From: Natroniella sulfidigena
GTDB taxonomy: Bacteria; Bacillota; Halanaerobiia; Halobacteroidales; Halobacteroidaceae
DNA length: 64,000 nucleotides
NCBI RefSeq assembly: GCF_023223645.1
Contig: NZ_JALKBY010000008.1
Span: 62,001 to 126,000 of the forward strand
Reading direction: 5' to 3'
The notes under the pieces are model-generated. The model was not told the DNA's origin and did no database searches. It was given only the letters and a program-made list of their open reading frames with translations. Each line of letters begins with the position of its first letter. The stretch's first letter is position 1. The translations under genes were made by a program, and so were the position numbers. Below, piece after piece: positions 15,826 to 32,722 of the stretch.

Positions 15826-16485
15826 CTAACACTCTATGATATTGATTGACTGCCCCAATAGATCTACTACACCACTGTCATGCACCTCTATCCCATCGCA
15901 AATTATTAACATTCTCAGAGTATCTGGTGTAGGTGGAGGAGTATCGGTCACTTCCAAAATAAATTCACAGATTCCTTGATTGACTCCACCAATTGTAACC
16001 TGTGCTGTACCTTCAATTATTGCCGCTTGATCATCAACACAACTCACAGAAGTAATCTCCCCTGGCCCAGGTGGTAATAGCATCAGTTCTACATCTTCTT
16101 CTCCACGAGTATCTTCATATAATACTTGATCAGGCTCAGGAGTACAGCCTGGACAAGCTACAACTGTTAATCTTACTACATCTGGTGAACATGGAGGATC
16201 AGGAAAAGGTATATTGGCAGCTCCAGTAACCTGACATTCACATACCGGTGGCGGTGGTGGCGGCGGAGGCGGTTCAATTCGCTCACTTACTGCACAGATA
16301 CAATCGAGTGCAATATAGGTTCGATTACAAGCATTATCAGGAGTTAATAATGTTAGATAGTCATCAGCTACCTCACCGACACAGCCAGTAAGTTCACAGC
16401 AGTTGGCCCCAGAGGTAATGATGATAGTAACTATCTTATTATCATCAACCAACCTCTCCAGTACCTTCCTCTTGAATTTTGACAT
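15826..16485 (-). CDS. Vicinal-cysteine Sm-like domain protein with polyproline linker and Cys-rich C-terminal domain
   Basis: The 219 residues fall into three parts. Residues 1-70 are the vicinal-Cys domain shared with five other genes in this window (VTIIITSGANCCELTGC, then RTYIALDCICAV). Residues 71-80 are a polyproline linker (nine prolines). Residues 81-219 form a beta-rich, Cys-containing domain with threonine/proline joints (TPPPTPDTLRML). There is no signal peptide. Many cysteines suggest disulfide cross-linking of a spore coat layer. Upstream is AC-N18-CATACAATA, sigma-K-like. Function is not recognised; a structural coat or exosporium protein is the best inference. Confidence 0.75.
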   Translation of the reverse strand: MSKFKRKVLERLVDDNKIVTIIITSGANCCELTGCVGEVADDYLTLLTPDNACNRTYIALDCICAVSERIEPPPPPPPPPVCECQVTGAANIPFPDPPCSPDVVRLTVVACPGCTPEPDQVLYEDTRGEEDVELMLLPPGPGEITSVSCVDDQAAIIEGTAQVTIGGVNQGICEFILEVTDTPPPTPDTLRMLIICDGIEVHDSGVVDLLGQSINIIEC

Positions 16486-16515
16486 TTCTTCCCTCCTTTC
16501 TGACTAAGATTATTA

Positions 16516-16544
16516 TATTGTATGAGAGGTTAGTATGTCTCTGT
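16516..16544 (-). promoter_or_regulatory. Sigma-K-like promoter of the Pro-rich vicinal-Cys protein gene
   Basis: On the minus strand AC, 18 bases, CATACAATA: all fixed bases match, though the spacer is one longer than usual. CATACAAT also fits the sigma-E -10. The start would be about 24 bases before the ATG. Confidence 0.45.
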
Positions 16545-16600
16545 GACTATAATAAAATCTCCTTATCAAGAAATAAGCCGAACTGTAAACAATATTAAGT

Positions 16601-16691
16601 AGTGTCAGTTTTGTGTGAGAGTGTGAGTAAGATCAAAAACATAAGGGCTAAGGTTTTGCTTTTACTCACACACACTACTCACACTGACACT
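16601..16691. repeat. Imperfect inverted repeat of about 90 bases
   Basis: The ends AGTGTCAG and CTGACACT are exact complements. Inside are GTGTGAGAGTGTGAGTAA and TTACTCACACACACTACTCAC, with ACATAAGGGCTAAGG in the loop. It sits between two coat-like genes and may also end the minus-strand transcript of the upstream gene. Confidence 0.6.
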
Positions 16692-16751
16692 TTTATCAAC
16701 AAACATAAAATTAACTATCATTAAGAAACCCTATGAAGAAAACCTATACCT

Positions 16752-18143
16752 TCACGGCTGGCAAGGATCCTCACAGTCAAGCTCTCCAACAACTGCTATT
16801 CGAGCAGTTACAGGTAAATTATCTATTCCTAATAAGATCTGCTGATCTTGATTTAAGAAGATAATATCCTGCAGACTATTAATTATTCTAACCGGCTCTA
16901 CAAAAGCTCTTGTTGCTACTACATTAAACTGAATATCCTTGATCACAGTTCCCCCTTGAGCAACTGTTAACTCCTCACAGATTATATTAATAGCTCTACC
17001 AGAGATATCAGTATTCAACGGTACTGGATTACCATCATCAACAAAGAACGCATCACAACCATCAAAGCTGGTAAATTGAACAGTAACCTCTTGGGGCACG
17101 ACCAGTGTATCGATTATAGTTATATCTGTCTGAGGAGAATGGCCTACATTATCAACTATAATCCGGAATATATTGGCATCAACTGTTGGCCCTTGTAAAC
17201 AACACTTATCGGCTGCCAATTGAACAGCATCAAGAAATAAAATACAGCTATCTGTAGCTTCTATACCTTGCGCTGAAGCAGTTACCATATTTCTGATCAG
17301 ATATCTATTAGGATCAACAATACTGACCACTGGAATCTCTACTGTAACTGTCGTTATCTCCCCACGAGCCAACGGGCCAAGGCTACCACTAATCACTATT
17401 ACTCCTGGTTCAACCTCTTCGATATCCAAATCAGGATCTACAATTATCTCTCCAAAGGTTATATTGGCAGCATCATACGTTATCTGATCCCTAAATTGAA
17501 CATTAGCAAAATTAGTATCGCCAACATTACTGACAGTGGCAGTATAATTTAGAGTAGCCTGATTATCATCGATAACTACTTCACAATCCTTCTCAATAAA
17601 TAACCGAGGCATCGGTGGACAGGCTGGAACTTGATAGCAACTACAGTCAAAGAGTAAGACTGGTGGACCTGCCTTAACTGCTAGTGGTTGAATCGCTGTT
17701 GGATAGTTACCAGTTATCTCTATTCGATAAAGAACAGCCACCCCTGTATCATATCGATCATCAGTCTCAATCTTTAAGAATTGAAACCCCTCAGGTGCTT
17801 CTCCAAAGATAGGATCTGTCTTTCTTAACTCAAAGGTATCGATCTCCTTAAACTCATCACAACCATCAATCTTCTCCTCAACTCTAATGTGAGCTTCATG
17901 GATCACCTCACAGATTGGAATTGCAATACTGCTGATCCCTCTAGTAGCTGGATCACAGTTGGTCACTACCTTATAACTCCAAAAGCTACTATTTTCTTCC
18001 TGAACAAAACAGGGGTTATTAACCACCCTACCATCAGGCAACCTCTGGCACTTAGGCTGGGCTATAAAGATTCCATTCTGCTCAGGACAACAACATTTGT
18101 TCTCGTAAGGTTTACAATCACACGGTTGGCACTCATCAAGCAT
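16752..18143 (-). CDS. Cys-rich DUF11-like surface protein without signal peptide
   Basis: The protein has 463 residues. A very cysteine-rich N-terminus (DECQPCDCKPYENKCCCPEQ) is followed by a beta domain with more Cys (to about 185). Two DUF11/CARDB-type Ig-like repeats follow: residues about 190-320 (LNYTATVSNVGDTNFANVQF, GSLGPLARGEITTVTVEI) and about 325-455 (FRIIVDNVGHSPQTDITI). DUF11 repeats are common in extracellular structural proteins. Here no signal sequence exists, which fits deposition on the forespore from the mother cell. The ribosome site is strong (AAAAGGAGGTGATTAATCA) and a sigma-K-like promoter lies upstream. It is inferred to be an outer coat/exosporium protein. Confidence 0.75.
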   Translation of the reverse strand: MLDECQPCDCKPYENKCCCPEQNGIFIAQPKCQRLPDGRVVNNPCFVQEENSSFWSYKVVTNCDPATRGISSIAIPICEVIHEAHIRVEEKIDGCDEFKEIDTFELRKTDPIFGEAPEGFQFLKIETDDRYDTGVAVLYRIEITGNYPTAIQPLAVKAGPPVLLFDCSCYQVPACPPMPRLFIEKDCEVVIDDNQATLNYTATVSNVGDTNFANVQFRDQITYDAANITFGEIIVDPDLDIEEVEPGVIVISGSLGPLARGEITTVTVEIPVVSIVDPNRYLIRNMVTASAQGIEATDSCILFLDAVQLAADKCCLQGPTVDANIFRIIVDNVGHSPQTDITIIDTLVVPQEVTVQFTSFDGCDAFFVDDGNPVPLNTDISGRAINIICEELTVAQGGTVIKDIQFNVVATRAFVEPVRIINSLQDIIFLNQDQQILLGIDNLPVTARIAVVGELDCEDPCQP

Positions 18144-18172
18144 TGATTAATCACCTCCTTTTAAAATTAATA

Positions 18173-18200
18173 CATAATATGTAAAATATTTCTTTTATGT
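18173..18200 (-). promoter_or_regulatory. Sigma-K-like promoter of the DUF11-like gene
   Basis: AC, 17 bases, CATATTATG on the minus strand: one mismatch (final A is G) to CATANNNTA. The start would be about 23 bases before the ATG. Confidence 0.5.
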
Positions 18201-18203
18201 GCA

Positions 18204-18312
18204 TAAAAAAATAACCGCAGGCCATAGTCTAAGGCTGAATTTAAGGTTAAGTAAACCATTAAAAAAAGAGAATTCTCCACAACCTTTAAAAAGCATAATT
18301 TCTTAAACCAAA
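18204..18312. repeat. Intergenic repeat with TCCACAACC element (copy 1)
   Basis: It contains AGTCTAAGGCTGAATTTAAGG, then TTCTCCACAACCTTTAAAAAGCATAATTTCTT. The second half is shared with 27701-27824 and 32313-32436. This copy has TTCTCCACA instead of the DnaA-box TTATCCACA. Confidence 0.6.
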
Positions 18313-18317
18313 ATAAA

Positions 18318-18344
18318 AACCTAGAGGAATTATTCCTCTAGGTT
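18318..18344 (-). terminator. Terminator of the 18353 gene
   Basis: A twelve-bp stem AACCTAGAGGAA / TTCCTCTAGGTT with a three-base loop is followed on the minus strand by TTTATTTTGG. Confidence 0.85.
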
Positions 18345-18352
18345 CATAAATA

Positions 18353-19315
18353 TTATACAGGCTCATCTTCTACAGCTGGCTCGAGGTCAAATTCTCCTTT
18401 AATGAAAATTCTAGTCACATTAGGGCATACCTCATCTAGCTCTATAACTTCTATCTTAGTAATCTTACCTTCAACATCCTCTAATGAAACATCATCACAA
18501 GGATTCTCTTCACACTCCTCACTGAGGGTAAGATATACAATATTATCTAAACAAACAGTCTCCAAACAACAGGCTGAAGCTTCATTCTCTAAGGTAACAG
18601 GCTCCGTCTCCTCAAAATCAAGTTGACCACCTTTATCTCCTTCCACTCCAGAAAGACTGATGATATATTCAATACTACCTACTATCTTGACTACAAATGC
18701 ATTTGCTGTTAGTTGAATTGTTTGCTCATTCCATGTCACATCACAACAAACTTCTTTTTTCTCCAAACAACAGCTTAACTTATCAGTAGTAAAGGTAAAT
18801 TCAACATTATCCTGATTAAAGTCCTCTGGTAAATCAAAATTTGTTGGCACCTGAATAAAACAACAGAAATCAACTTCATAATCTGTATCAACATGATCCA
18901 CACAATCCTCTTCATTTTCTTCTTGGGTAATTAATCCATCTTTAGCTATCTTTTCAAGTTCTTGTTCGCTTATTCCAATTCCATCTGCCATCTTCTCACC
19001 TCCTTTCGTAATGTTTTCATCCTCACTAGCTGTACTGCTCTCCTGCGGGATAACAGCTTCCTCATCCACTTCATTCTTATCAACCATTACATCACCCCCT
19101 TTTATAGAGCTTTGCTCAGGGCAATTATGTAAATTTATGAAAAACTGATTATAGACAATCTGTTTAGCCTCTGCTTGAGGTTGGCTATCCTTTTTGGTTG
19201 TCTGTTCTCCATTCTCAGTAATTATCTCTTCTAAAAAATCTCTTAATTCTATTAGATCTTCCTGCTCTAGCTTAAATAATTCATCGATCATAGTGAACAA
19301 GCTGACAAGATTCAT
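18353..19315 (-). CDS. Acidic Cys-rich protein with three in-frame Shine-Dalgarno/ATG starts
   Basis: I do not recognise this 320-residue protein. The N-terminal 76 residues are helical and acidic (LFKLEQEDLIELRDFLEEI). A short middle piece (VDKNEVDEEAV) follows, then a beta-rich domain of about 210 residues with many Cys pairs (DFCCFIQV, LSCCLEKKEVCCDVTW, ASACCLETVC). I start at ATG 19315, seven bases after AAAGGAG; ATG 19363 has no ribosome site. Inside the same frame, ATG 19087 (after AAAGGGGGTGATGTA) and ATG 18991 (after AAAGGAGGTGAGAAG) have strong ribosome sites, both encoding KGG before Met. The gene may yield nested products or be a fusion of small genes. A coat protein is inferred. 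Confidence 0.7.
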   Translation of the reverse strand: MNLVSLFTMIDELFKLEQEDLIELRDFLEEIITENGEQTTKKDSQPQAEAKQIVYNQFFINLHNCPEQSSIKGGDVMVDKNEVDEEAVIPQESSTASEDENITKGGEKMADGIGISEQELEKIAKDGLITQEENEEDCVDHVDTDYEVDFCCFIQVPTNFDLPEDFNQDNVEFTFTTDKLSCCLEKKEVCCDVTWNEQTIQLTANAFVVKIVGSIEYIISLSGVEGDKGGQLDFEETEPVTLENEASACCLETVCLDNIVYLTLSEECEENPCDDVSLEDVEGKITKIEVIELDEVCPNVTRIFIKGEFDLEPAVEDEPV

Positions 19316-19380
19316 CAACCTACTCCTTTCGAGTGGAGTTAAGTCAGTAGTTAAAGGCATCATTTAAGCTCATTTGCTAA

Positions 19381-19407
19381 CATACTATGTCATTGAGAAG
19401 AAATTGT
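19381..19407 (-). promoter_or_regulatory. Sigma-K-like promoter of the acidic Cys-rich gene
   Basis: AC, 16 bases, CATAGTATG on the minus strand, one mismatch at the last base. The predicted start is about 59 bases before ATG 19315. Confidence 0.45.
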
Positions 19408-19638
19408 GATTCTTTTTAATTACTCTACTGCTAGTAAAAACCAACTAAAGATAGGTTATAAAAATAGTACTAAAATCTGCTTGAATAAAGAATACCTAAA
19501 GCCTATTGCTAATAAAGTTTAATGTAACCCATACTTCCTTAACTACATATAATGGATTGAACTTGCTTTCATTGTCTGATTGGAAATAATTTTTATCATC
19601 CACACAATGAAAGTACTATATACATTATAAAAGGGGGG
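19408..19638. other. Rest of the 329-base divergent spacer
   Basis: This AT-rich spacer has no reading frame that I can support. It must hold the promoter of the plus-strand TasA-like gene; a sequence ACAATG...CATTATAAA was considered but would place the start on the ribosome site. Confidence 0.4.
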
Positions 19639-19644
19639 ATGAAG

Positions 19645-20097
19645 ATGTCCTTTACAGCTCAATCATCTAGTGATGATAGCTCCACCACCAATGCCTCGGT
19701 AGATATAAACGTGTCACCAGATACTATTATTACAGAAACTAATCTAACACCTGGCGATGATGTTACTGGTAGGGTCAATGCTGATAATACAGGCTCAATT
19801 GATCATTACTACTTTGTTTCTGCAGACTGGGCTCCAGAAAATTTTAATGCTAGTCGAACTGCAGTCCTTGCTAATACCTTAACTGCCAGTGTAATATCTG
19901 ATCCAGATGGAACACCAGAAACATTATTTACAGGTATCTTAAGTGATCTAATCGATAGACCAGATAGTCCTGGTAGAGAATTATTAGAGGGAACAGATGA
20001 AGATGTTGAATTTACTGTTGGTTTACCTGATGATGCAGGAAACTTAGTTCAAGCACTGGATATAAGTGTAGATTTTGTCTTTGTAGCAGTTGATTAA
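19645..20097 (+). CDS. TasA/camelysin-like protein without signal peptide (copy 1)
   Basis: The protein has about 150 residues. The layout follows TasA/CalY: an early strand ending ITETNLTPGDDVTGRV, an NTGSIDHYYFVSADW segment, a LFTGILSDLID segment, EDVEFTVGLPDDAGN, and a final strand LDISVDFVFVAV. TasA-family proteins form extracellular fibres in Bacillus biofilms and are normally exported through SipW. Here there is no signal peptide; the protein begins SFTAQSSSDDSS. Start ATG 19645 is six bases after GGGGGG; ATG 19639 touches that site. Paralogues lie at 24836 and 26807. A fibre or appendage protein assembled on the spore is inferred. Confidence 0.7.
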   Translation: MSFTAQSSSDDSSTTNASVDINVSPDTIITETNLTPGDDVTGRVNADNTGSIDHYYFVSADWAPENFNASRTAVLANTLTASVISDPDGTPETLFTGILSDLIDRPDSPGRELLEGTDEDVEFTVGLPDDAGNLVQALDISVDFVFVAVD

Positions 20098-20108
20098 AAT
20101 CTTTTATC

Positions 20109-20136
20109 TTCTCTGGTAGCTTAAACTGCCAGAGAA
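20109..20136 (+). terminator. Hairpin between the TasA-like gene and the glycosyltransferase operon
   Basis: TTCTCTGG ... CCAGAGAA stem with an inner AG/CT pair; no T-run follows, so it may be an attenuator or processing site rather than a full terminator. Confidence 0.45.
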
Positions 20137-20163
20137 GCTTACATAATGGGAGGTTCAACATAG

Positions 20164-20916
20164 ATGAAAAAGAATAAATTAGTGGCAATGATGCCTGTTT
20201 ACAATGAAGCTGATAGATACTTAGAACAGACATTAGAACAATTAACTCGTTGGGTAGATGAGATTGTGATTCTTGATGATGCCTCAACCGATGAAACAGC
20301 GAACATATGTCAGCAATATCCTAAAGTACATCTATTCAAAAATGAAACTCGCTTATTTAATCAAGACGAAACTATTGTTAGATCAAAGTTATGGGAGTTA
20401 GCAGTCCAACGTAATCCAGACTGGCTTCTAGCTATTGATGCCGATGAAATCTTTAGTGATAGGATCATTGATGAAGTGGGTTACTATATCAACCAAGAGA
20501 CTTATCAAGCAATCAGTTTTCGTCTCTTTGACTTTTGGAAATCTGAAGAGTTTTATCGGGTCGATGGAGCTTGGAATCCTTGGCATCGTCCCGGAAGTGT
20601 TTTTTTAGCCCGATACCATCCCGAATGGGATGCCAGTTGGCCTGACAATGTTATTCACACTGGACGTTGGCCATTAGAATATAGAAATTTAAAGCAGATC
20701 TATCATTCAGACATTAGAATCAAACATTTCGGCTGGGCCAACGCTGAAGATCATCATCAGAAATTCTTATTTTATTCTCAGAAAGACTTAGAACAATATG
20801 GAAAAGTCCAACCACATACTAAAAGTGTCATGGCTTTACCTAATAAGGTTAAATTAGAAGAATGGTTTGAACGGAAAAGATCATTGAAGGATGGTGAGCT
20901 AGTAAATGAAAGATAA
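20164..20916 (+). CDS. Family 2 glycosyltransferase
   Basis: This 250-residue GT-A glycosyltransferase has the nucleotide-sugar start VAMMPVYNEADRYLEQTLEQL, EIVILDDASTDET, and the metal-binding DAD motif in LLAIDADEIF (about residues 96-105). The family transfers sugars from NDP-sugars to acceptors in the cytoplasm. There is no membrane segment, so the acceptor is soluble, possibly a coat protein. It overlaps the next gene by 11 bases; the three glycosyltransferase genes form one coupled operon downstream of the TasA-like gene. The substrate cannot be read from sequence. Confidence 0.9.
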   Translation: MKKNKLVAMMPVYNEADRYLEQTLEQLTRWVDEIVILDDASTDETANICQQYPKVHLFKNETRLFNQDETIVRSKLWELAVQRNPDWLLAIDADEIFSDRIIDEVGYYINQETYQAISFRLFDFWKSEEFYRVDGAWNPWHRPGSVFLARYHPEWDASWPDNVIHTGRWPLEYRNLKQIYHSDIRIKHFGWANAEDHHQKFLFYSQKDLEQYGKVQPHTKSVMALPNKVKLEEWFERKRSLKDGELVNER

Positions 20917-22027
20917 AGTAGGCATCTTAACCAGTAACTTTTATGATCCTAGTGGTGAGAGATTGATCTATGGAGGAGCAGAGCGTTATGGTTATCAATT
21001 GACTAAATTACTTTTAGATTTAGATTATGAGGTTGAATGGTGGCAAGTAGGTAGTGGTTGGGAACAGGAGTTGATGGATGGAGTAATGGTCAAGAGTATC
21101 CCAGTTACAAAATCACCTTATGAAACTATGCCCGATTTAAATTATGCCTTTTTAGAACGAGCAGCTGATATTGATTACGCAATCTATTTCATTACCTTTT
21201 TAGCCTATCCCCAAGTTAAAGAAAAGAGTATCTCTCTGTCCCATGGAATCTATTGGGATTATCCGACCTTTGATAATTTAATCAATGGTCAGCAGGGGCG
21301 AGAAGAGTGGTTAAGAAGATTAAAGATTGCTTTAACTGGCCCAGAAAAAATTGTCTCGGTCGACACAGCTTTCATTCAGTGGGTCAAGGCTACTTGGACT
21401 GGACTTGATCATAAATTCAATTACATACCTAACTTTGTTGATCTAGAGAAGTTTAACCCTCAAAATCGAAGAGAAGTTCTAAAAGAAAAACCGATTAGGA
21501 TTATTTATCCCCGCCGTTTAACTACTGTGCGAGGAATTAATGAAACGATCAGAGTAGCTGAAGTAATGACTTCTGAAAATAAGGACTTGGAATTTCATAT
21601 CGTCGGCAGAGGCCATAAAGATGGGACAGAGAAGGAATTAATGAAGTGGGCTTCAAAACATGAGAGAATCTATTACTATTGGCAGTCACCAGAAAGGATG
21701 GCACAGCTTTATAAGCAGATGGATATCGCTTTGATTCCTACCAAGGCTGCAGAAGGAACCTCACTTTCTTGTTTAGAAGCCATGGCCTCTGGTTGTGTAG
21801 TAATCTCAAGTCATGTAGGGGGCTTATCAGATCTAATCTTTAATGAATATAATGGTCTCTTAGTTAAACCAACTGCTAAAAACTTGATTGAAGCTATCTC
21901 TTCTTTACTTGCAGATCCCAAACAAGCCCGACTTTTGAGTCAGAGAGGAATTGAAGTGGCTAAAACCTTCTCTATGAAACAATGGAGAAAGAACTGGGAA
22001 GCTATTCTAAAGGAGGTCTTTAACTAA
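20906..22027 (+). CDS. Family 4 glycosyltransferase (CotSA-like) 1
   Basis: The 373 residues have a GT-B fold. The N-terminal half includes GGAERYGYQLTKLLLDL; the C-terminal GT4 domain (from about residue 195) includes RIIYPRRLTTVRGI and the donor-site EGTSLSCLEAMASGCVVISSHVGGLSDLI. Relatives in Bacilli include spore coat protein CotSA. Start and stop overlap the neighbours (11 bases and 1 base), so translation is coupled. It is about one-third identical by eye to the next gene, a likely tandem duplication. Sugar and acceptor are unknown. Confidence 0.9.
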   Translation: MKDKVGILTSNFYDPSGERLIYGGAERYGYQLTKLLLDLDYEVEWWQVGSGWEQELMDGVMVKSIPVTKSPYETMPDLNYAFLERAADIDYAIYFITFLAYPQVKEKSISLSHGIYWDYPTFDNLINGQQGREEWLRRLKIALTGPEKIVSVDTAFIQWVKATWTGLDHKFNYIPNFVDLEKFNPQNRREVLKEKPIRIIYPRRLTTVRGINETIRVAEVMTSENKDLEFHIVGRGHKDGTEKELMKWASKHERIYYYWQSPERMAQLYKQMDIALIPTKAAEGTSLSCLEAMASGCVVISSHVGGLSDLIFNEYNGLLVKPTAKNLIEAISSLLADPKQARLLSQRGIEVAKTFSMKQWRKNWEAILKEVFN

Positions 22028-23103
22028 TGAAGCTAGGCTTTTTTGTACCTAATTTACTATCCTGGTCAGGAGATGAATTGGTGATCGGAGGACTTGAACG
22101 TTATGCCTGGGCGTTAATTGATTTAATCAATGATCTGGGCTGGGAGGTTGAAGTCCATCAAAATGGAAATTCAAACTGGGAACGGGAAGTTAATGGAGTT
22201 AAAGTAATTGGTCATGGTGTTGCTCAATTTTCCCCAGAAGCTGTTGTAGAAGAGGCGAATAGTTGTTGTGATAAAATATTATATGGTTCTATTTTACAAA
22301 GTCCAATGTATTATAAACAGAATTCGATTGTTATCTCCCATGGGGTGTGGTGGGATAGTAATAATTTTAAGCAACAAAGAAAAGAAAAAATGATTAAACT
22401 GTGTGGCAATGTATTGAATGAAGTAGATTTAGTAATCAGCTGTGACTATAATTTTTTAAATGTCATGCGTTCGATCTGGCCTGGAACCACCGATAAAATC
22501 AGGGTTATTCCTAACTTTGTCGATCTAGAAGAATTTAAACCAAGTAAAAATCCAACTACTGATTCTAAAATCAGAATCCTCTACCCTCGCCGTCTTGATA
22601 ATTGTCGGGGAACAGATATCTTTATTGAATTAGCAAATCAATTAATAAGTACAGTTGATAATATTGAAATTCTAATGGCTATAGACCGCAATAACCCCGA
22701 CAAAAATAAAGAAATCAAATCATTTTTGGCCCAAGATCAGGTCAAAAATTTCAATTTACAATTCAGTGAAATGCCAGCAATCTACCAACAGGCAGATATT
22801 GTTATTATTCCTAGTAAGTATAGTGAAGGTACTTCATTTTCCTGTTTAGAGGCGATGGCCAGTGGTAAGGCTATTATAGCAACTGATGTGGGTGGCTTGA
22901 CTAACTTAATTATAGATGGTTATAATGGTATTTTAGTTCCTCCTCGCCTAAAGACTATAAACAAAGCGGTTAACCTTTTAATTAATAATCAAGAGATGAG
23001 GCAAGTACTAGGCCAAAGAGCCAGAGAAACTGCTAAAGCCTTTACTATAGATAGATGGAGACAGTACTGGGCAGAATATCTAAAAGCAATTTATTTAAAA
23101 TAA
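22027..23103 (+). CDS. Family 4 glycosyltransferase (CotSA-like) 2
   Basis: The 358 residues have the same GT-B/GT4 architecture as the preceding gene: GGLERYAWALIDLIND near the start, RIRVIPNFVDLEEFKP-type linker, RILYPRRLDNCRGT and the donor motif EGTSFSCLEAMASGKAIIATDVGGL. Its ATG overlaps the stop of the first GT4 (TAATGA). It is the last gene of the operon; a perfect palindromic terminator follows. Together with the GT2 and the two sulfotransferases opposite, it suggests synthesis of a sulfated glycan. Confidence 0.9.
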   Translation: MKLGFFVPNLLSWSGDELVIGGLERYAWALIDLINDLGWEVEVHQNGNSNWEREVNGVKVIGHGVAQFSPEAVVEEANSCCDKILYGSILQSPMYYKQNSIVISHGVWWDSNNFKQQRKEKMIKLCGNVLNEVDLVISCDYNFLNVMRSIWPGTTDKIRVIPNFVDLEEFKPSKNPTTDSKIRILYPRRLDNCRGTDIFIELANQLISTVDNIEILMAIDRNNPDKNKEIKSFLAQDQVKNFNLQFSEMPAIYQQADIVIIPSKYSEGTSFSCLEAMASGKAIIATDVGGLTNLIIDGYNGILVPPRLKTINKAVNLLINNQEMRQVLGQRARETAKAFTIDRWRQYWAEYLKAIYLK

Positions 23104-23107
23104 AGTT

Positions 23108-23135
23108 AAGAATACTAGCTTAAGCTAGTATTCTT
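23108..23135. terminator. Bidirectional terminator between the glycosyltransferase operon and the sulfotransferases
   Basis: A perfect 28-base palindrome AAGAATACTAGCTT / AAGCTAGTATTCTT with T-rich flank on the plus side. Confidence 0.85.
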
Positions 23136-23151
23136 ATTTATTAACTTGCTA

Positions 23152-23901
23152 TCAGACCTGATAACCAATTAATTCCATGATTTCTTGGCAATTTTTTAGG
23201 ATAAATGCTTCATCTTTAGCAGATATCATTTTATTCTTTGTACTTCCAATCTTATGCCTTAATACATCATTAATTTGTGCTTTAGATAGTTGGGCCAATC
23301 TTGAGATCAAATTTACTGTCTGACTATCTTTAGCAACTAGATCTTCAAAACGAATCAAATAAGCTCTTTTATCCTCTTGGTCCATCTTGATATAAAATTT
23401 AGAATTTTCAATCCAAGTAGTTATATATTTTTCTATATGATTAGATATAGGCCAGTTATCAGGTATACTTTTCCATATTTCTACTGGGTTTCGAATTAAA
23501 AGAAAGATTATCGCTTCTGGATAGCACTTTCTCAATAACTCCAGTTCTTGTTGTCCATATCTAACTTCTTTAAATCCAATAATGTCATGTGAATTCTGAT
23601 ATTGAGAATAAAGATTAGCCAAAAAAGACTTAACAGAAGCTACTATTGCTTGATCAACATATTCATTGGTTGGAGTTAGATTAGCAATCCATTGGTTTGG
23701 GTCTTCGTTATTACCGAAATAATCGTTTCTCTCATGCTGGCAATAATCAGAACAATGCTTTGTGTCATCATAAATCTCTCTAAATAATTTTAATATCCCT
23801 TGATGTTCACCCCAGATTAAAGTCTTCTTTCTAGCATTACAAATTCGTTGTAACAGTGTAGAACCGGTTCGGTGGGTAGCAGCTGATATTATAAGATCAA
23901 T
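23152..23901 (-). CDS. Sulfotransferase family protein, apparent AUU start
   Basis: The protein has about 249 residues. The N-terminal PAPS-binding loop is AATHRTGSTLLQRI (residues 8-20) and the 3'-phosphate segment is FLLIRNPVEIWKSI near residue 135. Sulfotransferases move sulfate from PAPS to hydroxyls of sugars or proteins. Standard start codons would give only a 156-residue fragment (TTG at 23622) lacking the PAPS loop. The frame continues upstream in full family register to a TAG, and the only well-placed initiator is ATT at 23899-23901, eight bases after AAGGAGG. It lies 30 bases after the second sulfotransferase gene, in one operon. Confidence 0.8.
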   Translation of the reverse strand: MDLIISAATHRTGSTLLQRICNARKKTLIWGEHQGILKLFREIYDDTKHCSDYCQHERNDYFGNNEDPNQWIANLTPTNEYVDQAIVASVKSFLANLYSQYQNSHDIIGFKEVRYGQQELELLRKCYPEAIIFLLIRNPVEIWKSIPDNWPISNHIEKYITTWIENSKFYIKMDQEDKRAYLIRFEDLVAKDSQTVNLISRLAQLSKAQINDVLRHKIGSTKNKMISAKDEAFILKNCQEIMELIGYQV

Positions 23902-23931
23902 TTTGAATCCCTCCTTTTTAGTAAATGTTTT

Positions 23932-24690
23932 CTATTCCTTGCTATTCAACCTTACTGATCCTTTAACTCCCCCTTTATTGAGTATTATTTCCCGTTTCAA
24001 TCTCTGTTTGGCCCAGTGATATAATTCTAGATCAAGTTTATTCTTATCTTCAATCTTCTTAATTATATGCTGAGGAATCTCATCCAAAGAAGGACGTCTC
24101 TTATTTACTAACTTTTTAGAATAAGAAATATTATCCCAGTTTAATTTTTCTTTTATCAGTTGTAATGACCGATCAAACATCTCTGTGATCCCTACTACAG
24201 AAAAATAGTTATTCAAATTCTCTTTGGCCTGTTTTAGATCATTAGTTTTACCCGCAGCATAATATGTCTGGGTATTGGTATGATGTAATTGGTATAGCTC
24301 AGTTTGAGACTGAATTAAGTCTAGATCTAAATCAATAAATTCTTCTAAGCTCAGCTCTTTAATCATTTGATAATTGGGGTGGGCAGGTTCATCTTTCAAA
24401 TAATAGTACAAAGAAATAACCCTTTCTATTGGATTCCGCAAAAATATTATATAGGTGAAATCTCGCTCAAAAAATTTATGAATTCCATAAGAATAATGAC
24501 CAGTAATACACTTGACCTTTTCAACCTGCTTAACCGACATAGTCTTAAATAATTCAGCAAAAGTAGGCATCTGATTAGGATGGCTTAAAATCTCATCTGC
24601 TTGATATTGGTTTTGAATAATAGTCCGTAATGTAGTTCCAGCAGTCTTGGGCACGTGCATAAAGATTAAAAGTGAAAGTTCTTGATTCAT
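23932..24690 (-). CDS. Sulfotransferase family 2-like protein
   Basis: The 252 residues include the PAPS loop MHVPKTAGTTLRTII (residues 11-25), typical of the heparan/chondroitin 2-O-sulfotransferase group, and the 3'-phosphate motif YIIFLRNPIERVISLYYYL near residue 85. ITGHYSYGIHKFF is another family mark. The acceptor is probably a polysaccharide or glycoprotein glycan. A near-consensus sigma-K-like promoter lies upstream. Opposite in direction to the glycosyltransferases but adjacent to them, it supports a sulfated surface glycan. Confidence 0.88.
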   Translation of the reverse strand: MNQELSLLIFMHVPKTAGTTLRTIIQNQYQADEILSHPNQMPTFAELFKTMSVKQVEKVKCITGHYSYGIHKFFERDFTYIIFLRNPIERVISLYYYLKDEPAHPNYQMIKELSLEEFIDLDLDLIQSQTELYQLHHTNTQTYYAAGKTNDLKQAKENLNNYFSVVGITEMFDRSLQLIKEKLNWDNISYSKKLVNKRRPSLDEIPQHIIKKIEDKNKLDLELYHWAKQRLKREIILNKGGVKGSVRLNSKE

Positions 24691-24723
24691 TTAGGCAACA
24701 CTTCCTTAAATATATTTTTATTC

Positions 24724-24751
24724 TATCTTATTCTCTTTTTAATAAATCTGT
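24724..24751 (-). promoter_or_regulatory. Sigma-K-like promoter of the sulfotransferase operon
   Basis: AC, 17 bases, AATAAGATA on the minus strand: one mismatch (A for C) to CATANNNTA. The start would be about 27 bases before the ATG. Confidence 0.4.
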
Positions 24752-24835
24752 GCTTCAAATCAAACCTAGATAATATAAGCTTATTATTAAGCATATAATC
24801 TAATTAATAATAGTTATTAACGGGTGATGAAGATT

Positions 24836-25285
24836 ATGGGATTTACTTTTCAAGCACAAAGTAGTAGTTCTGATGTCAGTGATAGTGTTTCCTTAGAGTT
24901 GACTGTCTCTCCAGAAAAAGAAGCAATTACAAAAGAAAATATGACTCCAGGTGATTCAGTCAGTGCTACCATCAATGTCGCCAATACAGGGACAGTTGAT
25001 ACCTTTTATTTTATCTCAGTAGATTGGTCTGCTGCTGAGTCAACTACCCCAGCCCAAGCAACTCGCTTAGCAAATGAGTTGGAGATAACGGTCACAGTAC
25101 CTGATCCTGCTACATTGTACTCGGGCAAGATGGTTGATCTGATCAATCAACCTCCAGATGGTCGCTTACTTACCTTAGAAATAATAGAGGAAGATGTAAC
25201 ATTTACTATTACTTTACCCGAAACAGCAGGTACATCATTAGCCGGAATTGGGATCATCTTTGATTTGATCTTTATCGCAACCTAA
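24836..25285 (+). CDS. TasA/camelysin-like protein without signal peptide (copy 2)
   Basis: About 150 residues closely resemble the 19645 protein: GFTFQAQSSSSDVSDS, ITKENMTPGDSVSATINV, NTGTVDTFYFISVDW, LYSGKMVDLINQPPDGR, EDVTFTITLPETAG, and a last strand GIIFDLIFIAT. No signal peptide. By analogy with copy 1, the start is taken at ATG 24836, nine bases after GGGTG; ATG 24827 is possible. It is followed at 20 bases by the large structural protein gene, so the two are probably made together. A fibre subunit or adaptor role is inferred. Confidence 0.7.
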   Translation: MGFTFQAQSSSSDVSDSVSLELTVSPEKEAITKENMTPGDSVSATINVANTGTVDTFYFISVDWSAAESTTPAQATRLANELEITVTVPDPATLYSGKMVDLINQPPDGRLLTLEIIEEDVTFTITLPETAGTSLAGIGIIFDLIFIAT

Positions 25286-25305
25286 AAGAGGAGGTATAAA
25301 AATAA

Positions 25306-26805
25306 ATGCCAGGTTATATTAGCGGTACTATCCGTGATGCCCATGATAACGACCCGTTAGAGAATGTAATTGTCAATATCTTTCAGGGAATTATGGATAC
25401 CCAGATCACTGATGAGAATGGCGAATTTACCTCTATTGAACTAGATCCAGGAATCTACTTTGTCCAGGCCTCTTTGCAAGGCCATCAAACCTCACCTCGC
25501 TTATCTATCAGAGTCCGTGACGGTGAAACAACGAATATCGATATCAACCTAACCCCCTTGGAGACTGCTGGCCGTTTTTTTGCTGATCGAGATCAGATAA
25601 CCACCCTCTCTACAGATAAGATTGGCAATCTAAACATCCGCTCTGAAGCCGGCCAATTCGATGAATTAATTAGCAATGAAAAGACCCCTTTAATTGAACT
25701 AGATACCCCTTATGGGGTTTCAGAATTACGTGACATAACTACTGAAGAAACTGGTGGCTCAGTAACTAATAATGGGGTTGAGTTTGTTCTTAAAACGGCT
25801 GCTCAAGCTGATAGTAAAGCAACCTTAGATAGTGCTGAGCGAGGGCGTTATCAACCAGGAAATGCTGGAGAAACTGGCATAGCAGTTAGATTGCCTGAAA
25901 ACCCTACAGGAGAACAAGAAGCACGCTGGGGTTACTTTGATGATGATAATGGTGCTTATTTGGGCATAGATGACAATGGGCTCTTCGTGGCTATTAGACG
26001 GGAAGGAGTCGATAATAAAGTCCATCGTGCTAATTGGAATGGCGATCCAGCAGATGGCACAGGGCCAAGCGGATTGAACCTTGATCTAAGCCGAGGTAAT
26101 ATATTTCAGATACTCTATACCTGTTATGGTTATGGAGTTACCCTCTTTCGAGTATTATTAGTCGATCAAAATAATGTTCAACAGACAGTAACTCTTCATC
26201 GTTTTAAACCTGATCAAGAGACGACTTTTGGTGATCCTAACCTCCCCATTAGAGGTGAGATAGTCAATGGAGCTACCGCTGAAGAGTTTACCATGTTCGT
26301 TGCCGGTCGTCAATACCATGTCATCGGACGTTATGTACCCAATCGACGCATTACCTCAGAGCGTAGGCTTAATATTTCAGTAAATGAAACCTTAATCCCC
26401 ACCGTAAGCTTCAGACGTGAAGAAGACTTTCCTGTAGCAAATCGTAGTAACTCTGTCAGTGTTAAATTACAGAGTTTTGATATTATCAGTGATGCCAATT
26501 TAATCTATGAAATCCGCTTTGCTCCTACTTTAACTAATGCAAACTTTGGAGTGCCTACCAATACATCGACTGATGAGACAGCAGTCGAGAGTGATACTGA
26601 AGCTACAGATTTGACAGGAGGAGAATTAATCTTTTCTGGCTTAGTAAGTGGGGATGTAGATGGACCATTTGCCAGAATAGAGTTAGCAACGATTGAGCTG
26701 TTAGATCTTGACTTCAGTGGCCTTCAACCTGTTACCCTAGCTTTAAGAACTGTTTCTGGGACAGGAGAAGCAAGTGTAGTCTTTTGGGTTAGAGAGGAAT
26801 GGTAG
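25306..26805 (+). CDS. Carboxypeptidase-regulatory-like domain plus large beta-rich structural protein
   Basis: The 499 residues begin with a CarboxypepD_reg-like fold (about 1-82: GTIRDAHDNDPLENVIVNIF, TDENGEFTSIELDPGIYFV). A long beta-rich part follows with GVRLPENPTGEQEARWGYFDD-type, DGTGPSGLNLDL and TVTLHRFKPD stretches that recall virion or tail structural proteins. There is no signal peptide and only one Cys. The ribosome site is strong (GAGGAGGTATAAAAATAA). It is cotranscribed with TasA-like copy 2 and its stop is one base from the stop of TasA-like copy 3 on the other strand. It could be the tip or collar of a spore appendage; this is inference. Confidence 0.65.
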   Translation: MPGYISGTIRDAHDNDPLENVIVNIFQGIMDTQITDENGEFTSIELDPGIYFVQASLQGHQTSPRLSIRVRDGETTNIDINLTPLETAGRFFADRDQITTLSTDKIGNLNIRSEAGQFDELISNEKTPLIELDTPYGVSELRDITTEETGGSVTNNGVEFVLKTAAQADSKATLDSAERGRYQPGNAGETGIAVRLPENPTGEQEARWGYFDDDNGAYLGIDDNGLFVAIRREGVDNKVHRANWNGDPADGTGPSGLNLDLSRGNIFQILYTCYGYGVTLFRVLLVDQNNVQQTVTLHRFKPDQETTFGDPNLPIRGEIVNGATAEEFTMFVAGRQYHVIGRYVPNRRITSERRLNISVNETLIPTVSFRREEDFPVANRSNSVSVKLQSFDIISDANLIYEIRFAPTLTNANFGVPTNTSTDETAVESDTEATDLTGGELIFSGLVSGDVDGPFARIELATIELLDLDFSGLQPVTLALRTVSGTGEASVVFWVREEW

Positions 26806-26806
26806 G

Positions 26807-27292
26807 TTAATCATTTGCTTTAACAGCTATAAATAAGAGTTCAACTTCTAGATCCAGTTGTTGAATGAACCTGTTGGCCCTTTTATCGAGTGTTACTCTT
26901 ACCCTAATCTTCTGTTTCTCATCTACCTCAATCAAAACCCCCTCCTCAGATTGATTGATCAATTCAAGAAGCGGGCCAACAAAGATCTTCTCCTTTAGCT
27001 CTTCTTTATCTTCTTTCTCTTCAACAACTTTAAGATCCATCTTCAAGCTCTCAGCAATCAAGGCTACTTCTTGAGGTGGCTTATCTTGTGGGCTAAACCA
27101 CTCTGCAGAAATAAAGTAGTTAGCAACGACTGTTCCTATATTCTCAACCACAAGCATCCCTTCTACCGTATCCCCAGGAAGCATATTTTTAACATCAATT
27201 ATTTCTTCCTCGCTAACTAACAGATCCACCTTGCCAGCCTCTGCTCTATTATCTTTACTTTTATTTAAGGCATTAAAGAGTTTCTTTTTCAT
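26807..27292 (-). CDS. TasA/camelysin-like protein, charged variant (copy 3)
   Basis: The 161 residues keep the same core as the other two (IIDVKNMLPGDTVEGMLVV, NIGTVVANYFISAEW, FVGPLLELINQSEEGVL, LDLEVELLFIAVK), but with a basic N-terminus (KKKLFNALNKSKDNR) and a highly charged central loop (EEKEDKEELKEK). No signal peptide. It is transcribed with the vicinal-Cys gene 27328 upstream (35-base gap). The divergence suggests a distinct position in a common assembly, for example an anchor rather than a repeating subunit. Confidence 0.65.
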   Translation of the reverse strand: MKKKLFNALNKSKDNRAEAGKVDLLVSEEEIIDVKNMLPGDTVEGMLVVENIGTVVANYFISAEWFSPQDKPPQEVALIAESLKMDLKVVEEKEDKEELKEKIFVGPLLELINQSEEGVLIEVDEKQKIRVRVTLDKRANRFIQQLDLEVELLFIAVKAND

Positions 27293-27327
27293 CTTCTAAC
27301 CCCCTTTTTTAGATCATACCAAACTAC

Positions 27328-27606
27328 TTACCACACCCCAGTAACCACCCTACTACTGACCTTGAGATTGATCCCTTCTTCAGGAGGAAAAGGCTTATCT
27401 GGACTGAAGACAGCCACTATCTTGTTGGTCGGAATAAAGACCTTATTCTTCTTCTTAGTCAGTAATACAACAAATTCATCATTGACTACCATACAGACCA
27501 TTCCTGTCTGTCTGCAACATTCATCACCTGCTTGAATCGCTATAGTAACCATCTCGCCTAAAATCAAACTGTTTAACTTTTCTATCAGAAATTTCTGCTC
27601 ATCCAA
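27328..27606 (-). CDS. Vicinal-cysteine Sm-like protein (divergent copy)
   Basis: The 92 residues carry the family pattern VTIAIQAGDECCRQTGM, DEFVVLL and VFIPTNKIVAVF, but the second and third Cys positions (TGC, C-R-TYI, DCIC) are lost. Strand-turn-strand spacing resembles Sm/Hfq-like or DUF2642-like barrels; this is inference. A very G-rich ribosome site (AAAGGGGGGGGAGG) precedes the ATG. It has a sigma-K-like promoter and is followed by TasA-like copy 3. Confidence 0.65.
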   Translation of the reverse strand: MDEQKFLIEKLNSLILGEMVTIAIQAGDECCRQTGMVCMVVNDEFVVLLTKKKNKVFIPTNKIVAVFSPDKPFPPEEGINLKVSSRVVTGVW

Positions 27607-27656
27607 ACCTCCCCCCCCTTTCTATTAAAAACAGCTTACAAAGCCTCTCTTATTTT

Positions 27657-27684
27657 AATAATATGTTGCTTAAATAACTACCGT
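27657..27684 (-). promoter_or_regulatory. Sigma-K-like promoter of the 27328 gene
   Basis: AC, 17 bases, CATATTATT on the minus strand, one mismatch at the last base. The start would be about 44 bases before the ATG. Confidence 0.45.
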
Positions 27685-27700
27685 TACAAGCAGTTCCAAT

Positions 27701-27824
27701 AAAAAAGTTGCCTCCGGCAACTCAGTTTAAGTCTAAGATTGAGTTTAAGTAAAACCAACAAATACAAACTAGTAAAAATTATCCACAACCTCTAAAAAGC
27801 ATAATTCCCTTAATGAAAATAAAA
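27701..27824. repeat. Intergenic repeat with DnaA-box-like TTATCCACA (copy 2)
   Basis: It begins AAAAAAGTTGCCTCCGGCAACT (a short stem), continues AGTTTAAGTCTAAGATTGAG, and contains TTATCCACAACCTCTAAAAAGC (TTATCCACA at 27779-27787). Most of its length is shared with 32313-32436. Confidence 0.75.
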
Positions 27825-27844
27825 ATCCCTCCTTACGGAGAGAT
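27825..27844 (-). terminator. Terminator of the coiled-coil Sm-like gene
   Basis: ATCTCTCC-GTAA-GGAGGGAT on the minus strand, followed by TTTTTATTTTC. Confidence 0.8.
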
Positions 27845-27858
27845 CTTTAAAATAGAAC

Positions 27859-28776
27859 CTAGATTACTTCTAAATTACCACCAGAAGTTTTCTGTTCTTC
27901 AGCTTCAACTTTTTCTAATTCATCATCATCATCTTGCTCTTCTTGCTTAGCAGCAGTATCAGCTTCTTCTTGATAGTCCTCCATTGTTTGAGAAGTCTGC
28001 TCCTGTGTAGATGACTGATCATCTGAGTCTGACTTATCATCCTTCTTTCTCTTCTTCTTCGTCTTAATCTTCTCTAAAGCTGCTATCTTCTTAATTGGAA
28101 CCTTGATCAGCCGATTACCATTAGCAAGTACGATTACAAAATCACTATAAATCTCAAATAAGGCCCCAATAATTTCACAACAGCTATCCCCAGTTATGAT
28201 GATCAACTTAACAAAATCAAAGTTTTTGACATGCTTTTTTAATTCTGCTTTAAAATCATGCCTATCTCTAGAGCTTGAACTCTCTGCTTTCTCCTCTTTA
28301 ACTGCAATCAATTCATCCCTTAATTCTTTAAGCTCTTCTTGTAGTTCCTTAAAATCACCTAGCTGATCATCTTCTTTAGTAATCACTTGCTGCTTATCTT
28401 GTTTAACCTCTTCTAACTCTTTTTCTAACCTATGTATTTTATCTTTTAAGCTGTTTAACTCCCCTAACTTCCTAATTTTAATTGCTTCATCTTCCATCTC
28501 CTGCCCCCCTTTCTCTGCTTCAAATTCATCAGCAAACTCCTCTTCCTCCTCAGTTAAAGCCTCTTCTTTAAAATCTACCCTTTTAAGTGCTTGAGTAAGA
28601 AACTTCAATAATTGATCTGCATCCTTAGCACTAAGGTCAATATCTTCACTATCTACTTCAGAGAAATCATTCAATGAAGGAGTAGGAGGATTTCTCGTTG
28701 GTTGGCCCTTAGACTCCAATAACTCGATCATCAGCTTTTCTAACAACTCCTCTAAAAAATCTGCATCTTCCTCCAT
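27859..28776 (-). CDS. Acidic coiled-coil protein with C-terminal vicinal-Cys Sm-like domain
   Basis: The 305 residues are very acidic. Residues 1-90 are helical; residues about 100-180 form a long coiled coil (LKDKIHRLEKELEEVKQDKQ). The vicinal-Cys domain lies at about 190-240 (VKLIIITGDSCCEIIGAL, DFVIVLANGN, IKKIAAL), followed by a lysine cluster and an acidic glutamine-rich tail. An internal in-frame ATG at 28497 has a strong site (AAAGGGGGGCAGGAG), again encoding KGG just before the Met, so a shorter product of about 212 residues is possible. There is no signal peptide. A spacer or linker role in the coat is inferred from the coiled coil. Confidence 0.65.
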   Translation of the reverse strand: MEEDADFLEELLEKLMIELLESKGQPTRNPPTPSLNDFSEVDSEDIDLSAKDADQLLKFLTQALKRVDFKEEALTEEEEEFADEFEAEKGGQEMEDEAIKIRKLGELNSLKDKIHRLEKELEEVKQDKQQVITKEDDQLGDFKELQEELKELRDELIAVKEEKAESSSSRDRHDFKAELKKHVKNFDFVKLIIITGDSCCEIIGALFEIYSDFVIVLANGNRLIKVPIKKIAALEKIKTKKKRKKDDKSDSDDQSSTQEQTSQTMEDYQEEADTAAKQEEQDDDDELEKVEAEEQKTSGGNLEVI

Positions 28777-28829
28777 CCACTCTCCCCCCTTCCTAATTCA
28801 ATTTAAACTAGCTCACTCTAATCTTGAAT

Positions 28830-29153
28830 TTACATATCATGCCACCATTCATCCTTCTCGTCTTCAACATCTTCAACATCTTCAATATCTTTAAATCCTT
28901 TAAAATCTTTAACTTCTTCAACTTCATCCTTCACAGCACAGATACAATCTATCCTAATATAAGTTCTAACACAGACACCATTACTAGTAATTAAGGTAAT
29001 ATATTCAACTCCTACTATCTCTCCGATACATCCAGTAAATCTACAACAATTCTGCCCTGATTTAATTATAATAGTGATTGGTTTGTTCTTCTTAGCAAAA
29101 CCCCGCAACACCTTTACAAAATCTTTTCTTTTACTATGCTCAATCTCAGCCAT
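28830..29153 (-). CDS. Vicinal-cysteine Sm-like protein
   Basis: The 107 residues have the full family pattern: KRKDFVKVLRGFAKKNKP, ITIIIKSGQNCCRFTGC, EYITLI, CVRTYIRIDCICAV. An acidic tail with repeated EDVED units follows (EDVEDVEDEKDEWWHDM). The ribosome site is AAAGGGGGGAG. It has a perfect sigma-K-like promoter. Cys pairs suggest disulfide bonds or metal binding; function is not known. It has the most acidic tail of the set, which may bind calcium or basic partners. Confidence 0.7.
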   Translation of the reverse strand: MAEIEHSKRKDFVKVLRGFAKKNKPITIIIKSGQNCCRFTGCIGEIVGVEYITLITSNGVCVRTYIRIDCICAVKDEVEEVKDFKGFKDIEDVEDVEDEKDEWWHDM

Positions 29154-29185
29154 ATTGCTCCCCCCTTTCTTTATTTTGGCTAATT

Positions 29186-29213
29186 TATAATATGCCTCAA
29201 CTTTCCAAATTGT
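29186..29213 (-). promoter_or_regulatory. Sigma-K-like promoter of the 28830 gene
   Basis: AC, 17 bases, CATATTATA on the minus strand: exact match at all fixed positions. The start would be about 26 bases before the ATG. Confidence 0.6.
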
Positions 29214-29316
29214 TAAACCATAAACTTGTTATGTAATTCCCAATAGACTCAATTTAGAATAGTTATTGGCTGGAGCAAGCCCCAACCAATAACTATTGAT
29301 TTGATTTATTAACTAC

Positions 29317-29562
29317 TTAGCAACCACAGGTTTCATCAATCACAGCACAGATGCAGTCAATTCTGATAAAGGTTCTATCACAAACATCATTAGGATTGAT
29401 CAAAGTGATATATTCATCTCCTACTATTTCTCCTATACACCCAGTTAATTCGCAGCAATTTGCTCCTGAAGTAATTATAATTGTAACTGGTTTATTTTTC
29501 TTAGCTAAACGTCTTAACACACCTACAAAAGTCTTTCTTTTATGGCCTTGAGCTTCCGCCAT
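29317..29562 (-). CDS. Vicinal-cysteine Sm-like protein, minimal form
   Basis: With the start at ATG 29562 (six bases after GGGGGG; the ATG at 29568 abuts that site) this is an 81-residue protein consisting of almost nothing but the domain: KRKTFVGVLRRLAKKNKP, VTIIITSGANCCELTGC, DEYITLI, CDRTFIRIDCICAV and a final CGC. It is therefore the best definition of the family boundaries. Closest by eye to the N-terminus of the 15826 protein and to the 28830 protein. Function unknown; coat component inferred. Confidence 0.72.
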   Translation of the reverse strand: MAEAQGHKRKTFVGVLRRLAKKNKPVTIIITSGANCCELTGCIGEIVGDEYITLINPNDVCDRTFIRIDCICAVIDETCGC

Positions 29563-29593
29563 GTTCATCCCCCCTTTCTTACTTTTGATATTA

Positions 29594-29620
29594 CATTATA
29601 TGAGTTCTCTGTCATCCTGT
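29594..29620 (-). promoter_or_regulatory. Sigma-K-like promoter of the 29317 gene
   Basis: AC, 16 bases, CATATAATG on the minus strand, one mismatch at the last base. The start would be about 20-25 bases before the ATG. Confidence 0.45.
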
Positions 29621-29673
29621 TAATAAAATCGAAAAAAAGACGGCCGGAAATCTCCAACCGTCCCTTTGTCAAA

Positions 29674-29991
29674 TTAATCATCATCTTCTATAGTTGTTGG
29701 TCTCTTTCTTCTTCTTCGTCTTCTTTTACGTTTATCAACTTCAGCTGGCTCAATCACTGCACAAATAAATTCTGTTCTGATATACTTTCTGATGCAGACA
29801 TTATTGCTAGCAATTAAGACAACAAACTCATCTGTTACTTCTCCTACACAACCTGTCAATTCACAACAGTTTGCTCCTGACTTAACTATGATAGTTACTG
29901 GTTTATTACATTTAGCTAAACGTCTCAATACTTTCACAAAGTCTTTTTTCTTAGGAGGTCTACGTCTTTGCTTTTCAGTCTCTTCAGCCAT
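29674..29991 (-). CDS. Vicinal-cysteine Sm-like protein with basic tail
   Basis: The 105 residues read PPKKKDFVKVLRRLAKCNKP, VTIIVKSGANCCELTGC, FVVLIASNN, CIRKYIRTEFICAV. The tail is strongly basic (DKRKRRRRRRKRP), the opposite of the acidic tail of the 28830 protein. Oppositely charged tails on otherwise similar domains suggest the two could pair or bind different partners (DNA, polyanionic glycan, acidic coat). The ribosome site is AAAGGAGGG. A perfect sigma-K-like promoter lies upstream. Confidence 0.7.
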   Translation of the reverse strand: MAEETEKQRRRPPKKKDFVKVLRRLAKCNKPVTIIVKSGANCCELTGCVGEVTDEFVVLIASNNVCIRKYIRTEFICAVIEPAEVDKRKRRRRRRKRPTTIEDDD

Positions 29992-30020: not shown

Positions 30021-30047
30021 TATCATATGCCCTAGTTTTATTTTCGT
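30021..30047 (-). promoter_or_regulatory. Sigma-K-like promoter of the 29674 gene
   Basis: AC, 16 bases, CATATGATA on the minus strand: exact match at all fixed positions. The start would be about 23 bases before the ATG. Confidence 0.6.
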
Positions 30048-31152: not shown

Positions 31153-31232
31153 CTAGTAGTCAGCCTCCTATTTTCTTAGTTAGTTTAATTATACCATGAC
31201 AACTTTTTAAAGATTAAGGTAACTTTTGGTAG

Positions 31233-32246: not shown

Positions 32247-32312
32247 CATCTCCCTCCTTTCAGTTAATATCAGTTTATTCAACTAACTGATTTTTGTGAA
32301 AGGAAGGGAAAT

Positions 32313-32436
32313 AAAAAAGTTGCCTTCGGCAACTCAGTTTAAGTCTAAGATTAAGTTTGAGTAAAACCAATAAATAAAAACTTATAAAAGTTATCCACAA
32401 CCTCTAAAAAACATAATTTCTTTAAATAATAAAAAA
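32313..32436. repeat. Intergenic repeat with DnaA-box-like TTATCCACA (copy 3)
   Basis: It is very similar to 27701-27824: AAAAAAGTTGCCTTCGGCAACT, AGTTTAAGTCTAAGATTAAG, and TTATCCACAACCTCTAAAAAAC (TTATCCACA at 32391-32399). It lies exactly at the border between the accessory region and the conserved veg gene. Confidence 0.75.
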
Positions 32437-32454
32437 ACCCCTCAAATGAGGAGT
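32437..32454 (-). terminator. Terminator of veg
   Basis: AACTCCTC-ATTT-GAGGGGT on the minus strand (one mismatch), followed by seven T. Confidence 0.75.
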
Positions 32455-32455
32455 T

Positions 32456-32722
32456 TTAAATACTGATACATCCAATCTTCATATTATTTTCTTTGATCTT
32501 AATTTCAACAGTTTCAGTCAATACATCAGCATAGCTATATGAAATACGGCGTGGAGTTTGATTATCGTCAACTTTGACAACAAATACATTAGAGTATGTT
32601 TCTTCTAAAATGCCCTCTTTCTCCATAATCTTACGTCGCCCTTGATTAGCTTTTAAGTGAACCTCTTTACCTACAAAAGAGTCTAAGTCACTCTTAATTT
32701 GATTTAAAATATTATTTGACAT
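32456..32722 (-). CDS. veg: Veg protein
   Basis: The 88 residues match Veg of B. subtilis: LNQIKSDLDSFVGKEVHLKA, GRRKIMEKEGILEETYSNVFVV, and ISYSYADVLTETVEI. Veg is a small Sm-fold-like protein linked to biofilm control and spore outgrowth. It keeps its place next to ksgA (the yabG gene that lies between them in Bacillus is missing). In B. subtilis the next conserved genes are sspF and ispE; here the accessory region begins instead. Confidence 0.93.
   Translation of the reverse strand: MSNNILNQIKSDLDSFVGKEVHLKANQGRRKIMEKEGILEETYSNVFVVKVDDNQTPRRISYSYADVLTETVEIKIKENNMKIGCISI

Follow-up and report, generated by a model that had tools for sequence, protein, structure and literature searches.

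The window, i.e. the whole stretch of 64,000 nucleotides analysed here from Natroniella sulfidigena, a spore-forming bacterium of soda lakes, encodes six proteins that share a small domain with two neighbouring cysteines, which raises the question of what these proteins are for. A preliminary description had taken them for a modular, disulfide-linked spore-coat scaffold with an Sm/Hfq-like fold. Below we examine the copies, their predicted fold, their relation to known proteins, their promoters, distribution and neighbourhood, and the role that these may suggest.

Six copies of a cysteine-rich domain

All six copies are found where they had been placed and lie on the minus strand (Table 1), each protein containing one domain of ~65 residues with a vicinal Cys-Cys pair. 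Searched against the whole 2.6-Mb genome, the family profile hits exactly six places, which are the window copies (E 8e-39 to 8e-30); as this profile was built from those six copies, independent support comes from the relatives and from a search of the genome with a single copy, which returns the same six (E 1.1e-33 to 1.8e-4). Moreover, the six genes can be regarded as real because dN/dS values of 0.09-0.28, i.e. purifying selection, were obtained for the four clear orthologue pairs between the window and Natroniella acetigena.

The Cys-Cys pair is present in 6/6 window copies, as claimed beforehand, whereas the full motif strings given for all six occur in four, the copies at 27328 (TIAIQAGDECCRQTGM) and 27859 (LIIITGDSCCEIIGA) being divergent with 21-29% identity to the minimal copy, whose length is 83 and not 81 residues. 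Copy 2 has the pair and lacks the additional cysteines of the main group. Family-wide there are two main cysteine patterns, namely CC plus positions 44, 63, 72 and 74, and CC plus position 46, and the CC pair is missing in 10 of the 60 aligned members. Of the domain residues 6.5% are cysteine, as compared to 0.85% in the window genes beyond 32.5 kb.

Table 1. Features of the window and of loci in related genomes (L numbers)
Feature	Position	Strand	Sigma-K-like promoter	Remarks
SipL/SPOCS (three stretches) + LysM protein	7419..9035	(-)	9078-9103	coat-assembly type
gvp-associated sigma-K-like site	10562-10587	(+)
gvp-associated sigma-K-like site	15744-15770	(-)
Copy 1	15826..16485	(-)		219 aa; N-terminal barrel domain, polyproline linker, Cys-containing C-terminal region
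DUF11-like protein	16752..18143	(-)	18174-18200 (own)	463 aa; coat-island neighbour
CryBP1-domain protein	18353..19363	(-)	19382-19407	coat-island neighbour
Camelysin-like protein	19639-20094		present
Glycosyltransferase-like and sulfotransferase genes	20164-24690			sulfotransferase 23932-24690
Camelysin-like protein	24824-25282
Camelysin-like protein	26807-27292
Copy 2	27328..27606	(-)	27658..27684 (-)	92 aa, TTG start; most divergent of the six; barrel fold predicted as for copy 5
Copy 3	27859..28776	(-)		305 aa; acidic/coiled-coil N-terminal part, barrel domain ~28042-28266 (C-terminal half), charged tail
Copy 4	28830..29153	(-)	29187..29213 (-)	107 aa, acidic tail
Copy 5	29317..29568	(-)	29595..29620 (-), ACAGGATGACAGAGAACTCATATAAT	83 aa, minimal copy
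Copy 6	29674..29991	(-)	30022..30047 (-), ACGAAAATAAAACTAGGGCATATGAT	105 aa, basic tail
Conserved flank	30415..34265	(-)		CAP protein, trypsin-like protease, Veg, KsgA, RNase M5
SIALEETALAHFMNAEAEKVQA-like paralogue array	L037:18883-19826, L038:53-1389, L048:10709-12778, L052:11201-17489
Small protein-kinase-like gene pairs	L039:13901-15452, L045:14368-15895
gvp-associated sigma-K-like sites/loci	L151:11248-11463, L152:13204-13479

The domain is predicted to form an Sm-type barrel

Structure prediction of the minimal copy had been set beforehand as a check on the proposed Sm/Hfq-like fold, and AlphaFold (23 sequences) indeed models the 83-aa copy as an Sm-type barrel with a mean pLDDT of 83.4, comprising a helix (3-24), strands 27-34, 37-49, 53-57, 65-69 and 73-78, and a short turn (70-72). 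The model of copy 2 (mean pLDDT 74.7; 79-90 over the domain) has the same topology, so that a helix and a five-strand barrel with a short turn before strand 5 are present in both predicted models. The top solved match of the 83-aa model is Hfq, with a Z of 9.9 and an rmsd of 2.0 over 66 (Foldseek E 8.3e-3). Two solved spore proteins, GerQ (Z 9.2) and CgeA (Z 8.8, rmsd 1.6 over 64), are among the best matches of the copy 2 model, as are Hfq and a designed barrel; matches less than 1 Z unit apart are counted as ties. The Foldseek E-values, at best 6.7e-4 for copy 2, are modest to weak and small barrels are common, so these matches support the fold and say nothing about function.

With Hfq as nearest fold of the 83-aa copy, and with one weak match (E 0.0036) in the PDB between A4, a wider profile of 60 family members, and the archaeal Sm protein 1m5q, the proteins might be RNA-binding riboregulators specific to sporulation. 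Fold and strand order are indeed those of Hfq/Sm proteins, but the Lys-His pair of the Hfq Sm2 motif is found in 0 of 60 members, Hfq (PF17209) does not score above its cut-off (best E 0.085), and a canonical hfq gene is located elsewhere in the genome (E 1.6e-30). Since the pair is absent from all members and a separate canonical hfq exists, the family is not Hfq. Cysteine richness and the link to sporulation also set it apart from Hfq. The many paralogues per genome, the acidic or basic tails and the high cysteine content likewise speak against a riboregulatory role, which we regard as very unlikely.

Sequence profiles lead to CotB-type coat proteins

Scanned against Pfam and NCBIfam, the window copies yielded no match above cut-off. 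Copy 1 reaches 16.9 bits with DUF6897 (PF21838; cut-off 23.9), the other five copies having no listed match. DUF2642 (PF10842) is not among the listed matches of any window copy, and two aligned family members match it with a best E of 0.025. When the PDB was searched by sequence, neither the 83-aa copy nor A3 brought up a useful match. The profile comparison, in contrast, was productive: hhalign aligns the family profile with 108 CotB-type domains, taken from natural Bacilli proteins, one of them encoded beside a CotH gene (E 4.7e-96), at 96.2% (E 2.7e-9, 59 columns), as compared to a maximum of 6.3% for column-shuffled and 0.7% for reversed controls. The C-terminal barrels of RimP reach 92% against the same family profile, and the CotB link may therefore be one at superfamily level only. 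The f42 set, which was compared as well, shares two sequences with A4 and is thus no independent test.

Sample sets of DUF6897 and DUF2642 score 0.8% and 14.6%, respectively, when aligned directly to the family, and both link to the CotB domains; additionally, three CotB-type proteins score above the cut-offs of both. The suggested resemblance to DUF2642-type coat proteins hence came close, applying as it does to the linked CotB-type proteins, whereas the window copies themselves reach neither cut-off. The evidence on CotB and GerQ reported here comprises only the natural homologues and the PDB chain to which probes for the two proteins led.

The likeness to CotB of Bacillus, a protein of the outer spore coat, spans the entire domain (96%). 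In CotB three domains stand in tandem, those seen having no CC pair, and CotH phosphorylates a tail rich in Ser, Lys and Arg, whereas each window protein has a single cysteine-rich domain, extended by acidic, basic, coiled-coil or Cys-containing parts; three tandem domains and a Ser/Lys/Arg-rich tail, the marks of CotB proper, were found in none of the window copies. In CotB, the N-terminal half interacts with itself and the N-terminal domain adds to the thickness of the outer coat (PMC7821199). GerQ (PF09671; PDB 8zra), the top solved match of copy 2, is a coat protein as well and forms C9 rings via a continuous antiparallel sheet (PMC11405398); it is not among the Pfam matches of the family, and hhalign with a single GerQ sequence gives an insignificant 1.4%. 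The spore crust protein CgeA (PDB 9l9d) matches in fold at 9% identity. Hfq, Sm-like proteins, CotB and CgeA go unmentioned in the text on the GerQ structure (PMC11405398), and a search of the literature for Sm-like proteins in spore coats brought up nothing relevant. Taken together, the preliminary description is largely upheld, and the family looks like a cysteine-rich version of a kind already known.

Sigma-K-like promoters and occurrence in genomes with spoIVA

The sequence AC-N16/17-CATANNNT, which we take to be the sigma-K consensus established in Bacillus, is found within 120 bp upstream of 31 of the 66 family genes (shuffle mean 0.94). Of 314 other genes only 18 have it, and of the 27 window genes beyond 32.5 kb none (Fisher p 3e-15). 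Family genes with such a site come from 12 of 14 genomes, the distance to the start codon being 12-79 bp, and the genome has a sigma-K gene (335 bits, cut-off 299). The strict motif is missing in the 120 bp upstream of 35 of the 66 family genes, some of which are probably operon-internal. Copy 3 lies close downstream of copy 4, with which it is probably co-transcribed.

The closest named match of the 83-aa copy is from N. acetigena (95% identity), a sister species of the same genus that also has six copies, followed by Halonatronum saccharophilum and Orenia metallireducens. Among 101 genomes searched with the profile 17 have a match, the one in G014 being a GGDEF-type protein that was dropped, so that the true positives are the genome itself and 15 related genomes, which contribute about 70 further copies. 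The long coiled-coil form and the form combining the domain with a Cys-rich region both recur in these relatives, and the retention of long and short architectures supports the term modular. With A4, more distant relatives come up in 33 out of 398 genomes from the phylum, some marginal matches being other proteins, e.g. RimP and the DNA clamp; in this search a protein with a SafA-type LysM domain was found to carry a related domain.

spoIVA is present in 29 of 61 genomes tested, including all 16 family-positive genomes (own genome counted), and the family is absent from 32 of 32 spoIVA-negative ones (Fisher p 3e-7, uncorrected for phylogeny apart from the contrast within family f3). In family f3 the sole spoIVA-positive genome is the sole family-positive genome.

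The coat island and its gas-vesicle genes

The array adjoins the genes for RNase M5 (rnmV), KsgA, Veg, a trypsin-like protease and a CAP protein. Relatives of the same family share this gene order, and the middle part of the island differs between the window and N. acetigena. Veg was considered as a relative of the family and dismissed, hhalign giving an insignificant 3.5%.

The island also encodes the SipL/SPOCS-LysM, CryBP1 and DUF11-like proteins of Table 1 and three camelysin-like proteins, one of which (26807) matches Peptidase_M73 over the cut-off and clusters with the other two. Three glycosyltransferase-like genes, classified by sequence only, and a sulfotransferase gene (PF03567) lie between coat genes and may serve the decoration of a spore surface glycoprotein. 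In N. acetigena, G011 and G004 the family is adjoined by a separate array of paralogues of ~72-193 aa, most with a motif like SIALEETALAHFMNAEAEKVQA, and in Halonatronum (G003) and G025 by pairs of small protein-kinase-like genes, similar single genes being found in G004 and G011.

A gvp cluster (about 10.6-15.6 kb) lies within the island, adjoins copy 1 and has sigma-K-like sites, which might make the six proteins gas-vesicle accessory proteins. Among the family-positive genomes, however, gvpA is found only in the genome itself and in G009, and N. acetigena has six copies but no gvpA. On this distribution we consider such a role largely refuted and the least probable of the readings discussed here. 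As to the gas vesicles themselves, gvpA has a sigma-K-like site ahead of it both in the window and in G009, as does the first gvp gene of G017 and, at -148, that of the window, but none was seen in the spoIVA-negative G054 or in G060. These sites hint at spore-specific gas vesicles, which are known in Sporohalobacter lortetii (PMC4187190).

Proposed role in the spore coat

The coat role put forward in the preliminary description has been borne out by the sigma-K promoters, the co-occurrence with spoIVA, the coat-gene neighbourhood and the CotB-type profile link. We consider it likely that the six genes encode structural proteins that belong to the spore coat or exosporium and are made, assembled and locked as outlined here, the location in the coat being suggested by sequence and gene context. 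Synthesis would be driven by sigma-K in the mother cell, late in sporulation, and each protein would contribute one Sm/Hfq-type beta-barrel devoid of the RNA-binding Lys-His pair. By analogy with GerQ, the barrels would most likely join by strand-to-strand contacts, resulting in rings or stacks. The vicinal cysteines, together with the further cysteines of the main subgroup, may then lock adjacent subunits covalently, as suggested by the cysteine content and by cysteine-rich coat proteins of other spore-formers, which form disulfide-locked arrays (PMC7333573). The self-assembling spore-surface proteins CotY, ExsY, CsxA and CdeC are high in cysteine in this way; the analogy concerns how they work, no sequence relation to them having been found. 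Finally, the differing tails and the coiled-coil form might link the layer to other coat proteins.

GerQ, to which the fold matches, is reported to recruit CwlJ (PMC11405398). The window proteins could accordingly be located in the coat and recruit another activity instead of forming bulk scaffold, and the extra regions of the long forms would suit such a task, but multiple cysteine-rich paralogues in an array resemble bulk structure, and we hold recruitment to be improbable. With a structural role as the favoured reading, we tentatively suggest, as a generalization that is quite possible but by no means assured, that endospore coats across Bacillota make repeated use of the Sm/Hfq barrel as a building block (CotB, DUF2642/DUF6897-type proteins, GerQ, CgeA, LysM-SafA-type proteins and the present family), with ring-forming strand contacts and a disulfide-locked version in Halanaerobiales-type bacteria. 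CotB, GerQ and CgeA, which are usually held to be unrelated, would then share one barrel that is best known from RNA-binding rings.

Literature searches turned up no characterised coat protein of halophilic or alkaliphilic spore-formers, and the family provides likely coat proteins of these organisms with a name and with a fold that can be tested. Should the strand contacts and the cysteines work as proposed, both the self-assembly of a coat and its covalent locking would be open to study on a protein of 83 residues.
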